Part shown: piece by piece, positions 2,699-62,883 of the stretch
Position numbering within the stretch: position 1 is the stretch's first letter
Layout: the number at the start of each line of letters is the position of its first letter
DNA from: Litchfieldia alkalitelluris
GTDB lineage: Bacteria > Bacillota > Bacilli > Bacillales > Bacillaceae_L
DNA length: 64,000 nt
Direction: 5' to 3'
NCBI RefSeq assembly: GCF_002019645.1
Contig: NZ_KV917374.1
Coordinates: 2,802,696-2,866,695 of the forward strand
The notes under the pieces: model-generated
Told to the model about the DNA's origin: nothing
Seen by the model: the letters and a program-made list of their open reading frames with translations, nothing else
The model's database searches: none
Made by a program: the position numbers and the translations under genes

Positions 2699-3994
2699 AT
2701 GACAAAAAGCACAAAGTTACCTCAAAAGGTAAAAGGTTTATCTGGTAGTATTGTTATTCCAGGTGATAAATCTATTTCCCACCGCGGAGTGATGTTTGGC
2801 AGTCTTGCCAACGGAACAACAGAAATTAAAAATTTCTTAACAGGTGAGGATTGTTTGAGTACAATCGATTGTTTTAGAAAGATGGGCGTTGATATCACGG
2901 TTACTGATGATGTTGTTGTTGTTCAGGGAAAAGGAATGGATGGGTTAGTTGAACCTTCAAAAATTCTTGATGTTGGTAACTCAGGAACAACAACCAGGTT
3001 AATGTTAGGAATATTAGCAGGCAGTTCATTCCACTCATGCATCATTGGTGATGACTCTATTGCTAAACGACCAATGAATCGAGTAACTGCACCACTAAGA
3101 ATGATGGGAGCCGAAATTGATGGTAGAAAAGAAGGTGGATTTACACCACTGGCAGTAAGAGGAACTAAGTTACAGGCTATAGATTATGTATCACCTGTAG
3201 CAAGTGCACAGGTGAAGTCTGCAGTTCTTCTTGCAGGACTAAATGCTAATGGTACTACCTCTGTAACAGAGCCAGCTAAATCAAGGGACCATACAGAAAG
3301 AATGTTACGTGCATTCGGATGTGAAGTTGAAGAATCTGGTTTAAGAGTTTCTATTAAAGGTGGCCAAACTTTGTCGGCTACTAAAATTGTTGTTCCTGGA
3401 GATATCTCTTCCGCTGCATTTTTCCTAGTTGCTGGCGCAATTACACCAAACAGTTCAATAACATTAAAAGATGTAGGTATGAATCCAACAAGGACAGGGA
3501 TCATCGATATTCTTACAGGGATGGGAGCCGACCTTATAGTGGAAAACGAACGGACTGTTAACTTTGAGCCAGTGGCTGACTTAACCATTTCCACTTCCGA
3601 TTTAAAAGGGATAGAAATAAGTGGTGAAATTATTCCAAGATTAATTGATGAAATCCCTGTCATTGCATTATTAGCGTCACAAGCATCTGGTCAAACCGTC
3701 ATTAAAGATGCGAGTGAGTTAAAAGTAAAGGAAACGAACCGAATTGATACTGTCGTAAATGAACTATCAAAGCTGGGTGTTAATATTCAATCAACAGATG
3801 ATGGAATGGTCATAACTGGATCTGCTACACCTTTATCAGGTGGACAAGTTAGTAGTTATGGAGATCATAGAATTGGAATGATGCTTGCGGTTGCTTCATT
3901 AATAGCCGACGGAGATCTCACTCTTGATGATCCAGATGCTATTGCAGTATCTTACCCGACCTTCTTTGAACACCTTAAAGAACTAAGTCTATAG
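2699..3994 (+). CDS. aroA: 3-phosphoshikimate 1-carboxyvinyltransferase (EPSP synthase)
   Basis: The enzyme joins phosphoenolpyruvate to shikimate-3-phosphate in the sixth step of the shikimate pathway. The 431 residues show GDKSISHR (22-29), the NSGTTTRL motif, the RPMNR loop and the C-terminal KETNRI and GDHRIGMM segments of the double inside-out barrel. B. subtilis calls this gene aroE. GAGGTG lies eight bases before the ATG. It follows tyrA after a gap that holds a repeat and is closed by the terminator at 4009. Confidence 0.96.
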
Positions 3995-5099: not shown

Positions 5100-6353
5100 A
5101 TGTTTAAATTAGAAGAAGCAATTCAATTAGTTGAAAATGGAGAAGCTGAAAAAGGCCTAAAATATATTAATGAAATGAAAAGCCAATGTTCAGATGATGA
5201 GAAATATGAAATTGCAATAACCTTTTTTAAATGGGGATTAGTAAATGAAGCCAAAGATCTTGTGGAAGAACTTTTATTTATGTATCCAGATGAAGGTGAA
5301 CTGCTAGTCTTAATGGCTGAAATTCTAATTGATTTAGACAATGAAGAAGAAGCGATTGGTTTTTTAGAAGATATCTCGAAAAATGACCCAGCATATGTAG
5401 AGGCTCTTCTTTTACAAGCTGATTTGTATCAGATCCAAGGTTTGCATGAGGTGAGTGAGCAAAAACTCTTGACTGCTAAAAGACAGATGCCCAATGAAGA
5501 TATAATTGACTTTGCTCTTGCTGAACTTTATTTGAGCCAAGCTGAGTATAAAAAGTGTATTCCTTACTATAAGTCAATCATTGCAGGTAATGAAAACATT
5601 GCAGGTGTTAACCTATATTCAAGATTAGCTGAAGCATTAAGTACTGTTGGTGAATTTGAGGAGTCTCTGCCGTATTTTGAAAAAGCAATAGAAAAAACTG
5701 AGGAAATCAATACACTATTTAACTACGGATTTACTTCTTTACAAGCAGGATATCATATTACTGCGATTGAGGTATTCATAAGGCTTAAAGAATTAGATCC
5801 AGAATATAGTTCCCTATACTTACATTTAGCGAAAGCGTATGAACAAGAGGAAATGATTTCAGAAAGCTATGAAGCTGCACAAGAAGGCTTAAAGATTGAT
5901 AATCTTAATAAAGAATTATATTTTCTAGCCGGAAAATTAGCGATGAAGCTCGGGGATATAAGTTCGGTAGAAAATCATCTTAGACAGGCAATTGCGATTG
6001 ACCCAGGATACATTGAGGCTACAACTACTTTGACAAGCTTTTTGAGACATGAACAAAGATATGAAGATATTGTTGAGTGCCTTCAGGAGGTTATGAGCTA
6101 TGGCGAAAATGATCCACAGTTCGAATGGGACTTGGCCTATGCAAAAAATCAACTTGAAGAATATTCTCATGCATTAAACCATTATCGTCTTGCATATACT
6201 TCTTTTAAGGATGACAGAGACTTTTTAGAGGAATATGGTTACTTTCTTTTAGAAGATGGAAAACGGGCAGAAGCAGTTGATATTTTTAAATCACTATTGC
6301 TAATTGAACCAGATAATCTTGAAATAGAAGAGCTGATTTTAGGCTTGGAGTAG
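5100..6353 (+). CDS. ypiA: TPR-repeat protein YpiA
   Basis: The 417-residue protein is made almost entirely of helical tetratricopeptide repeats, with repeated ...A..A...P...E.. spacing such as FEESLPYFEKAIE and EATTTLTSFLRHEQRY. It has no signal peptide or membrane segment, so it is probably cytoplasmic and protein-binding. AAGGAG lies upstream of the ATG, 15 bases after the preceding stop. Length and position after aroA match B. subtilis YpiA, whose partner is unknown to me. Confidence 0.88.
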   Translation: MFKLEEAIQLVENGEAEKGLKYINEMKSQCSDDEKYEIAITFFKWGLVNEAKDLVEELLFMYPDEGELLVLMAEILIDLDNEEEAIGFLEDISKNDPAYVEALLLQADLYQIQGLHEVSEQKLLTAKRQMPNEDIIDFALAELYLSQAEYKKCIPYYKSIIAGNENIAGVNLYSRLAEALSTVGEFEESLPYFEKAIEKTEEINTLFNYGFTSLQAGYHITAIEVFIRLKELDPEYSSLYLHLAKAYEQEEMISESYEAAQEGLKIDNLNKELYFLAGKLAMKLGDISSVENHLRQAIAIDPGYIEATTTLTSFLRHEQRYEDIVECLQEVMSYGENDPQFEWDLAYAKNQLEEYSHALNHYRLAYTSFKDDRDFLEEYGYFLLEDGKRAEAVDIFKSLLLIEPDNLEIEELILGLE

Positions 6354-60324: not shown

Positions 60325-61862
60325 ATGAGTCACAAACTTATGAAATTCGTAGATAGGTTGCCAATTATGGATACGTTAAAACCAAAAAAGAAGTTGAAAG
60401 ATGGCAACTATTATGAGGTAAGAATGGAACAATTTTGCAAAAGCTGCACAGAGACTTGCCGCCGACACGTTTATGGGGCTACAATCGTCAAGTACCAGGG
60501 CCAACATTTGACGTTAATAGGGGGAACGTGTTCATGTGAAATGGATAAACAATCTTCCTAAAAGACATTTTCTCCCTGTTGATCAATCATTTCTTGATGT
60601 TGAGTTACCTGAGGTCAGAACTGTAACCCATTTACACGGTGGGGAAACTCCTTCACCAAGTGATGGATATCCTGAGGCCTGGTTTACAAAAGGGTATGAA
60701 GAGGTAGGTCCATTCTTTGAAAGAGAAGTTTATGAGTATCTTAATAATCAAAGAGCAACAATGCTTTGGTACCATGATCATGCTATGGGGATAACAAGAC
60801 TAAACAATTATGCAGGACTTCCGGGAGCCTATATTATAAGAGACAAACATGAAAAATCTTTAAACTTACCATCAGGAAAGTACGAAATTCCTCTTATCAT
60901 ACAGGATCGATCTTTTAACCATGACGGATCACTTTCATATCCCAACCAGCCAAACGATGCATCTAATGTGTTACCAAATCCTTCTGTTATTCCAGCATTT
61001 TTTGGTGACACAATCTTGGTGAATGGAAAGGTATGGCCTTATATGGAAGTTGAACCGCGAAAATATCGTTTTCGTATATTAAATGCATCTAATACAAGAG
61101 GGTATCAATTTATATCTTGATTCTGAACAAACAGTATATCAAATTGGTTCAGACGGTGGTCTTTTAGAAAAGCCTGTTCATATGGAAAAAATCGCGATCG
61201 AACCATCTGAACGTGTTGATTTAATCATAGACTTTTCAAAAAATGAAGGAAAGGAAATTGTCTTAAAAAACGATCTTGGTCCGAATGCTGATCCTGATAA
61301 TGAAACAGATGAAGTTATGCAATTTAGAGTCACAAAGCCACTTTCAGATTTTGATAAGAGTGTAATTCCAACTAGATTGTCAACTATCCCTAAGTTGAAG
61401 CAAAATAACATTTCAACAATTAGAAATTTAAAACTAGTAGGTACAGATGATAAATTTGGGAGACCATTGTTGTTACTTAATGGCAAAAGATGGCATGATC
61501 CAATTACGGAAAAACCCCAACTTGGTTCAATGGAAATATGGTCTTTGTTTAATACAACAGCATTTACTCATCCCATGCATATTCACTTAATTCAATTTCA
61601 AATTTTAGAACGACAGCCTTTTGACTTAGAACGCTATAATCAAGATGGTCAAATCATCTATACAGGAGGACCAACACCTCCTGAAGTGAACGAGCGAGGC
61701 TGGAAAGACACAGTAGCAGCAACATCTGGACATGTAACAAGGGTAATTGGAAAATATGCTCCACACGTAGGGCATTATGTTTGGTATTGTCATATTTTAG
61801 AACATGAAGATTATGACATGATGCGACCTTTTGAGGTGATTGATAGAGAGAAAAATAATTAA
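60325..61862 (+). pseudogene. cotA: CotA-type spore coat multicopper oxidase, three frameshifts
   Basis: The ATG at 60325 follows AGGAGGTGG. The reading [33 protein letters not shown] and KWINNLPKRHFLPVD are all CotA/bilirubin oxidase segments but lie in three different frames. Copper sites are complete: HLHGG, WYHDHA, HPMHIH and HCHILEHEDYDMM. A lost T near 60430-60434, a lost G near 60520-60524 and an extra A near 61113 explain all the shifts. CotA is a laccase of the outer spore coat. The gene is probably inactive. Confidence 0.93.
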
Positions 61863-61910: not shown

Positions 61911-61960
61911 AAAAAAGAAAATGGATAATGGAAGGACCATTTATCCATTCTCTTTTTTTA
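61911..61960. terminator. Bidirectional terminator between cotA and the thioredoxin-TPR gene
   Basis: AATGGATAATGG and CCATTTATCCATT (61919-61949) pair with one bulge; a T run follows on the plus side and an A run precedes. Confidence 0.88.
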
Positions 61961-62734
61961 GTTATTGCTATTATTGGTTGTTCCAGGAATATAACATCCT
62001 TCTGGTCCACAATCTAAATCATTTTTTAATTTAGCTTCTACTGCCTTTTCTTTCTTTAATTCAATTTGTTGCCATTCAATATCAATTGTTGGAGAAAACT
62101 TTTCAGGATAACGAATATACCATCTCTGTTTCCTAATGAGAAAATTGTCCGTGTCTAGTAAAAGAGCCTCATCCAATTCGTGTAATGCTTCTTCCTTTTT
62201 TCCGTTTTTCCAATACTCCATACCTAATTTAAACTTTGTTTCCGATAATTGTTTCTCTAAATTGATAAGAGTAGAGGTAGGGTTATAATATTCATCATCT
62301 AAAACAACGTGGTCTACAGTACCATTTATTAAATTTTGTATTGCCTTTAGGTGATTTTCATTTGTCACATGAAATCCTTGTTTAACTAGTCGAATCGTAC
62401 CTTCTTTATCAATAAATATACCGTTAGGGACAATTTTAAAACCAAATAAATTAGCAAAAATATTATCCGTGTCAACAACTGTTGTAAAAGAATGATTTTC
62501 TGCATAAGGTTTTACTACTTCCGACCCTTGAATATCTACAGAAACTGATAAGAATTCAAATTCTTGATCTTGGAACTTTTCATAAAAATCCTGCCAGCCT
62601 GGCAGTTGTTCACGACAACGTCACCACGATGCCCACATAAAAATTAAAGTGTTTTTTCCTCTGAAATCATTAATTGAAACAGAATTCCCATGTATATCTT
62701 GAAGTGTAATGTTTTTCATTTTTGTCATTAACAA
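61958..62734 (-). CDS. Thioredoxin-fold/TPR fusion protein with in-frame UGA at the active site (candidate selenoprotein)
   Basis: Read through one TGA (62623-62621), the frame gives about 258 residues. It has a TlpA/ResA-like domain starting ITLQDIHGNSVSINDFRGKN, then WASW-UGA-RCREQLPGWQ, then VDIQGSEVVKPYAENHSF and the cis-proline loop GFKIVPNGIFIDKEG. A TPR-like helical tail (KFKLGMEYWKNGKKEEALHELDEA) ends in CGPEGCYIPG. TTG 62734 has AGGGAGGG six bases upstream; ATG 62728 is the next in-frame start. UGA replaces the first active-site cysteine. A CUGCC-AGGCU-GGCAG hairpin begins 15 bases downstream. Selenocysteine insertion or a recent nonsense mutation would explain it. Confidence 0.7.
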
Positions 62735-62883
62735 ACCAATCCCTCCCTTATGATTAGTTTACATTGGAAATCCCGAATACTCAATTATTTCGTTTTAAAT
62801 TAAATATTGGATTATCTGTTTGTAAACCTTCATCTTGAGTAATATTAACTATAAAATAACATTTCAAGGAGATGATTTTAGAA

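Follow-up and report, generated by a model that had tools for sequence, protein, structure and literature searches.

A minus-strand reading frame of 258 codons, running from 62734 to 61958 of the window (the whole 64,000-nucleotide stretch of DNA that was analysed), is interrupted by a single TGA at 62623-62621 and then closes with TAA (Table 1). The initial annotation had described a frame with one TGA, in the context WASW-UGA-RCREQLP, at the first redox position of a TlpA/ResA-type domain, and re-reading of the minus strand confirmed this. The TTG at 62734 is likely to be the start codon and places 37 codons upstream of the UGA, the same number as in 30 of the 38 sequences compared; an automatic start rule picked the ATG at 62728. 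On the plus strand, two overlapping ORFs in different frames, 60536-61120 and 61083-61862, look like a single multicopper oxidase split by a frameshift, with a Cu-oxidase_2 match of 74.4 bits in the latter and no Pfam match at 1e-5 in the former.

Table 1. Features of the predicted selenoprotein gene and its product, in window coordinates, with the TTG codon counted as residue 1
Feature	Position	Strand	Remarks
Shine-Dalgarno-like GGGAGGG	62741..62747	(-)	6 bases 5' of TTG; read from sequence
Predicted selenoprotein gene	61958..62734	(-)	ResA/TlpA-like thioredoxin domain, TPR-like helices, CxxxxC tail
Thioredoxin-fold (AhpC-TSA/ResA-like) domain	62324..62722	(-)	about residues 5-137; Pfam, model and PDB matches
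Predicted selenocysteine codon UGA	62621..62623	(-)	residue 38
Cys codon TGT of the U-R-C motif	62615..62617	(-)	invariant in the 13 rows of alignment A1 and the 41 rows of alignment A3
Putative bacterial SECIS hairpin	62591..62605	(-)	comparative and folding evidence; stem CUGCC 62605-62601, loop AGGCU 62600-62596, stem GGCAG 62595-62591
Helical TPR-like region	62021..62263	(-)	residues 158-238; model and profile matches
C-terminal CGPEGC	61994..62011	(-)	Cys 242 (62011-62009), Cys 247 (61996-61994); pLDDT <50
TAA stop of the predicted selenoprotein gene	61960-61958	(-)	

The N-terminal part of the translated frame matches Pfam PF00578 at 64.1 bits against a cut-off of 26, the AhpC-TSA/Redoxin match lying within residues 5-124. 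An AlphaFold2 model built from 41 sequences, with selenocysteine modelled as cysteine (mean pLDDT 87.8), predicts a thioredoxin fold for residues up to about 137, followed by helices at 158-238 and by a low-confidence tail that is probably disordered, and a Foldseek search with it returned ResA structures as the best PDB matches (E 2e-11, TM about 0.8 by target length). The TPR tail proposed from the sequence is likely; the region of the modelled helices gives profile matches to designed TPR chains, but the TPR_2 match at residues 166-197 scores 22.3 bits and falls under the Pfam cut-off of 27. No hydrophobic N-terminus was found, the highest 19-residue hydropathy being 0.98 and that of the first ten windows at most 0.04, and the protein is therefore probably soluble and cytosolic. 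The U-x-C motif that had been noted takes the form U-R-C, with the arginine invariant in both alignments; A3 omits L062 for an early in-frame stop, L069 for an extra TGA, L079 because its reference ran into a stop and L059 and L086 as near-duplicates, and it uses 8 of the loci added by the order-wide sample described below. Of 38 sequences, 37 carry CGPEGC or a close variant in the tail, and the remaining one is truncated by an early stop. Across the family the only shared selenocysteine or cysteine positions are the selenocysteine, the cysteine two residues on and the two tail cysteines; among the 38 sequences one further cysteine each occurs in L060 and L008 only. The host genome also encodes ordinary CxxC relatives, for example with WCKPC and WCPPC, so the selenium form is not a substitute for a missing thiol enzyme.

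The CUGCC/GGCAG stem, the AGGCU loop and their spacings from the UGA (15 bases to the stem and 20 to the loop) were all located as the initial annotation had claimed. The legend to Fig. 2 of PMC13188914 gives limits for bacterial SECIS elements (bSECIS) that include a loop of 3-9 nt, an upper stem of 4-16 bp, a spacing of 16-37 nt, a G within the first two loop positions and an MFE of no more than -7.5 kcal/mol. When coded, these limits are satisfied after 463 of the 2625 TGA triplets of the window, counted on both strands and in all frames, and a stricter form (stem of 5 bp or more, loop of 5 nt or fewer with GG among its early positions) is found after 43 of the 2625. The 50-nt stretch folds modestly better than its shuffles (z -2.0, with 7 of 200 shuffles as good), and an Rfam search of 62400-62800 gave no match up to E 1. 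The hairpin of the window is, by itself, weak evidence, and the test of selenocysteine is therefore comparative. An extended element was also considered, since the window's own fold has a lower stem; only 65% of the lower-stem cells pair across relatives, and the extension was rejected on this poor pairing while the apical stem of 5 bp was retained.

The TGA is shared by every examined orthologue that covers the codon. In a first sample of 100 genomes, consisting of the host and 99 relatives, a strong match was found in 12 genomes as 13 copies (two in G065), and a TGA lies inside all 13, each of which also showed the motif on reading. A scan of GTDB species genomes yielded 37 loci, of which 33 cover the codon and have TGA in 33 of 33; the others are fragments without the codon (L085, L089, L090) and an unrelated Bacteroidetes protein (L091). 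One of the two peptide patterns used in that scan holds cysteine at the selenocysteine position and the other lies elsewhere, so that cysteine forms were not disfavoured. An order-wide sample of 396 genomes, overlapping with these loci, gave 31 matches at 1e-25 when at most the best six candidates per genome were scored, and the 30 that hold the N-terminal half have TGA in 30 of 30. No cysteine orthologue at the selenocysteine codon was found among the 33 loci or the 30 genomes of the order-wide sample, which answers the question, raised by the initial annotation, of whether homologues carry cysteine or selenocysteine here. Named carriers belong to Bacillus, Cytobacillus, Virgibacillus, Litchfieldia, Aquibacillus, Pontibacillus, Evansella, Salipaludibacillus, Paenibacillus and Alicyclobacillus; in a phylum-wide sample of 398 genomes, again with at most the best six candidates per genome scored, the host genome alone matched at 1e-22. 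One genome, G321, has a divergent second copy (L122, G321:C1:689651-690325) with the TGA, WGSWURC and the hairpin and without the CGPEGC tail.

Comparison of the hairpin was made over 36 sequences including the window, L059 and L086 having been dropped as more than 95% identical to L058. Both the UGA and the hairpin are kept in 36 of 36, which places the hairpin above chance, and all 36 pass the coded published limits with a spacing of 20 or 21 nt. Standard pairs occupy 180 of 180 pair cells and two of the five pairs have changed on both sides. In 500 shuffles, the observed paired percentage, covariation score and number of doubly changed cells were never reached, and the numbers of doubly changed pairs and of pair types were reached in 8. 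Sliding the 3' partners by one to three columns lowers the paired cells to 19-81%, and the covariation score is 0.186 for the real pairing against at most 0.084 for any slide: at -3, 81% of cells still pair with a score of 0.059, and at +3 the two doubly changed pairs equal those of the structure, with six pair types against four, at a score of 0.084. RNAalifold, unaided, recovers the identical five pairs.

The stem also contains compensatory synonymous changes. Its outer pair joins position 1 of a Leu codon to position 3 of a Gln codon, and the combinations seen are CTG-CAG (29), TTG-CAA (5), TTG-CAG (1) and CTT-GAG, where the second codon is Glu (1). Within the loop, GGA accompanies 14 of 14 Pro or Ser codons that end in T and 1 of 22 that end in A. 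Judged against the codon usage of these genes, the lowest synonymous diversity among the conserved columns tested falls at Leu+6 (z -9.7), Pro+7 (-8.2) and Gln+10 (-5.9), followed by Leu-35 (z -5.6), while Gly+8 in the loop shows no such reduction (z -0.8). TTA is used at Leu+6 in none of the 36 sequences and Pro+7 is CCA or CCT only in the 36, with CCC found in L117. Conservation of the protein alone leaves this choice of synonymous codons unexplained, and the pattern among relatives indicates that the hairpin is selected as RNA.

The selenocysteine genes whose presence the initial annotation had proposed to check were all found in the host genome (5.43 Mb), elsewhere than in the window. On contig 1, SelA is encoded at 3286183-3287274 (479 bits), SelB at 3288064-3289920 (364 bits, cut-off 242) and SelD at 1164052-1164981 (426 bits, cut-off 125), and a tRNA-Sec gene lies at 3290253-3290345 with 57.8 bits against a gathering score of 47. 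Among 14 control genomes, 5 also score over the cut-off with this tRNA model, and the stronger evidence is the ARAGORN call of a tRNA-SeC with anticodon TCA. The same genome has no fewer than two further UGA genes that belong to known kinds of selenoprotein: the SelD gene itself has a TGA (GGUGCK), and between selA and selB lies a SelW-like gene of 86 codons with CMQU and an in-frame TGA (L033:1154-1414, minus strand), which matches TIGR02174 at 67.2 bits against a cut-off of 34.2. The U-R-C gene tracks the selenocysteine trait. In the order-wide sample, 180 of the 396 genomes have SelA, and these include all 31 in which the gene or a remnant was found (Fisher p 5e-12, kinship ignored); the 12 carriers of the first sample of 100 genomes all fall among the 58 with full-length SelA (Fisher p 8e-4) and among the 57 with a tRNA-Sec over the cut-off (p 7e-4), kinship again being ignored in both figures. 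In G187, selB, a SelW-like gene, selA and then the U-R-C gene follow one another on one strand, and a tRNA-Sec gene is close by.

Taken on this comparative evidence, the UGA of the window is very probably decoded as selenocysteine within a selenoprotein of 258 residues, a reading to which we give a probability of about 0.95. The selenocysteine interpretation first proposed is supported by the sel genes of the host, by the shared TGA and by the conserved, covarying hairpin. Two of the refuting conditions that the initial annotation had named, a genome lacking sel genes and close relatives with a Cys codon and no conserved hairpin, were put to the test, and both outcomes favour selenocysteine. 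The roles of the Sel proteins are well established, and by them SelA would make selenocysteyl-tRNA(Sec) using selenophosphate from SelD, SelB on the 5-bp hairpin would deliver it to the UGA, and the ribosome would read past this codon to the end of the 258-residue protein.

The alternative that survives best accepts a selenoprotein and holds that it is just a short version of a known UGC-containing ResA/TlpA-like family. The best NCBIfam match of the protein is indeed NF041054, the 'ResA-like WAxxUGC motif-containing protein' (WAxxUGC_long), with which it shares a ResA/TlpA-type domain and the order of selenocysteine first and cysteine two residues on. Furthermore, G005 encodes a long UGC relative of 368 residues (L047:1780-2886, plus strand) in which TGA occupies the corresponding position and the same stem encloses an AGTTT loop (CTGCC-AGTTT-GGCAG), and the window protein is 30% identical to it over query residues 8-207. 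However, the score of 112.9 bits is far under the curated cut-off of 300, as are those of two relatives (114 and 135.6), about 80 N-terminal positions of the profile are unmatched, arginine or lysine (U-K-C in L116) stands between the selenocysteine and the cysteine, and the window family adds a CxxxxC tail that L047 is without. Membership of NF041054 was rejected on the score and on the motif, WASWURC against WAxxUGC, and a mere short version is considered possible, though on the whole unlikely. Judged by sequence, the family is nevertheless kin to the known UGC-type ResA/TlpA selenoproteins; it differs in the U-R-C motif, the shorter form without a hydrophobic N-terminus and the conserved C-terminal CxxxxC tail. 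The host genome has no other NF041054 match above the cut-off. As G005 carries both a U-R-C protein and the long UGC relative, the two types can share a genome. The long relative itself scores 281 bits, just under the cut-off, and NF041054 may therefore miss real members.

Other known systems share features with the window protein. ResA, StoA and TlpA have the same fold and are exported or membrane-anchored CxxC proteins, whereas the window protein has UxC, no hydrophobic N-terminus and extra helices with a tail; its score against NF002854 (ResA) is 63.4 bits, below the cut-off of 170. SelW, SelT and SelH (Rdx) are likewise selenoproteins and have a thioredoxin-like fold, but the SelW-like gene of the same genome has CxxU, is 86 residues long and matches other families. 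The 'UGC-containing TlpA disulfide reductase family protein' (cd02966) of a 2026 review (PMC13188914) and the 'Prx-like (UGC-containing)' family of the 2008 ocean survey, or GOS paper (PMC2398784), were matched to the window family by motif only. The parts of the literature consulted hold no description of a U-R-C ResA/TPR family, and an earlier description is possible.

A further alternative is that the UGA truly stops translation, with the downstream part made from an internal GTG at 62368 (136 codons) and the hairpin put to another use. An ORF at 61958-62368 does exist, and two loci, in G061 and in Fictibacillus nanhaiensis (L089), retain the C-terminal part only. This is very improbable for three reasons: first, the invariant residues, including U-R-C and the thioredoxin core, continue across the UGA without a break; second, the two remnants abut sequence unlike the family, as relics would; and third, SelA is present in all carriers. 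The initial annotation had itself cautioned that the TGA could be a nonsense mutation of TGC or TGT, which would make the gene a pseudogene, and the frameshifted look of the adjoining multicopper-oxidase-like gene makes regional decay plausible. This explanation fails on the sharing of the TGA by each covering orthologue examined, with cysteine in none, on a frame that is open on both sides and on a hairpin that covaries, since a fresh change would not be common to several genera, and its likelihood is negligible. Leaky UGA readthrough occurs in Bacillus, and L069 has an extra TGA at a Trp position, yet the redox Cys position of the codon, the presence of SelA in all carriers and the hairpin make it scarcely credible that the UGA is read by near-cognate readthrough as another residue such as tryptophan.

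With the UGA read as selenocysteine, it is suggested that the protein would act as a ResA/TlpA-type thiol-disulfide oxidoreductase in which, from position and fold, Sec38 would attack and Cys40 resolve. For the helical region, docking of a partner is probable, and the modelled fold would suit a reductase that acts on a cytosolic disulfide, sulfoxide or peroxide. Reduction of the Sec-Cys selenenylsulfide, or onward transfer of electrons, is a probable role of the tail pair Cys242/Cys247; alternatively, thioredoxin may be the reductant of the Sec-Cys site. A tentative possibility is a selenium-obligate, self-recycling enzyme in which the CGPEGC dithiol reduces the Sec-x-Cys pair of the same protein, much as electrons are relayed by the C-terminal tails of thioredoxin or mercuric reductases, and which has no cysteine version as its chemistry needs selenium. 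Such an arrangement is supported by the finding that the selenocysteine, the cysteine two residues on and the tail cysteines alone are shared and by the failure to find cysteine orthologues; it is opposed by the divergent copy in G321, which argues against a need for the tail in all relatives. The tail cysteine pair does offer a simple, testable mechanism.

The family would add a selenoprotein subfamily of many Bacillaceae and some Paenibacillus and Alicyclobacillus. Given that selenocysteine is predicted at all 33 loci and in all 30 genomes that cover the codon, in samples that overlap, it would provide a clean case in which to ask why selenium is retained. Three members were scanned against NCBIfam (June 2026 release) and none attains the cut-off of any model; annotation is therefore likely to miss the gene or to start it after the UGA.

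A search of 72,556 plasmid records by tblastn at 1e-20 gave no match, and a mobile origin of the gene was rejected on this result. In the neighbourhood of 35 loci, compared for ORFs of at least 80 codons up to about 6 kb either side in most loci, no ORF cluster besides the U-R-C family occurs in more than six loci, and no recurrent neighbour suggests a substrate. The two remnants, G061 (L046, about 3502-3830), where SelA is present, and F. nanhaiensis L089 (6001-6291), retain nothing but the C-terminal portion, CGPEGC tail included, and, from the family-unlike sequence adjoining them, are apparently relics. L070, titled Pseudomonas sp. ISL-84, carries a Bacillaceae-type copy, which probably reflects a wrong title or a foreign contig. 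Finally, in Bacillus sp. FJAT-27251 (L069, about 6091-6110) a second TGA replaces the Trp codon of FMW-SSWURC, which is a mutation or a sequencing error.
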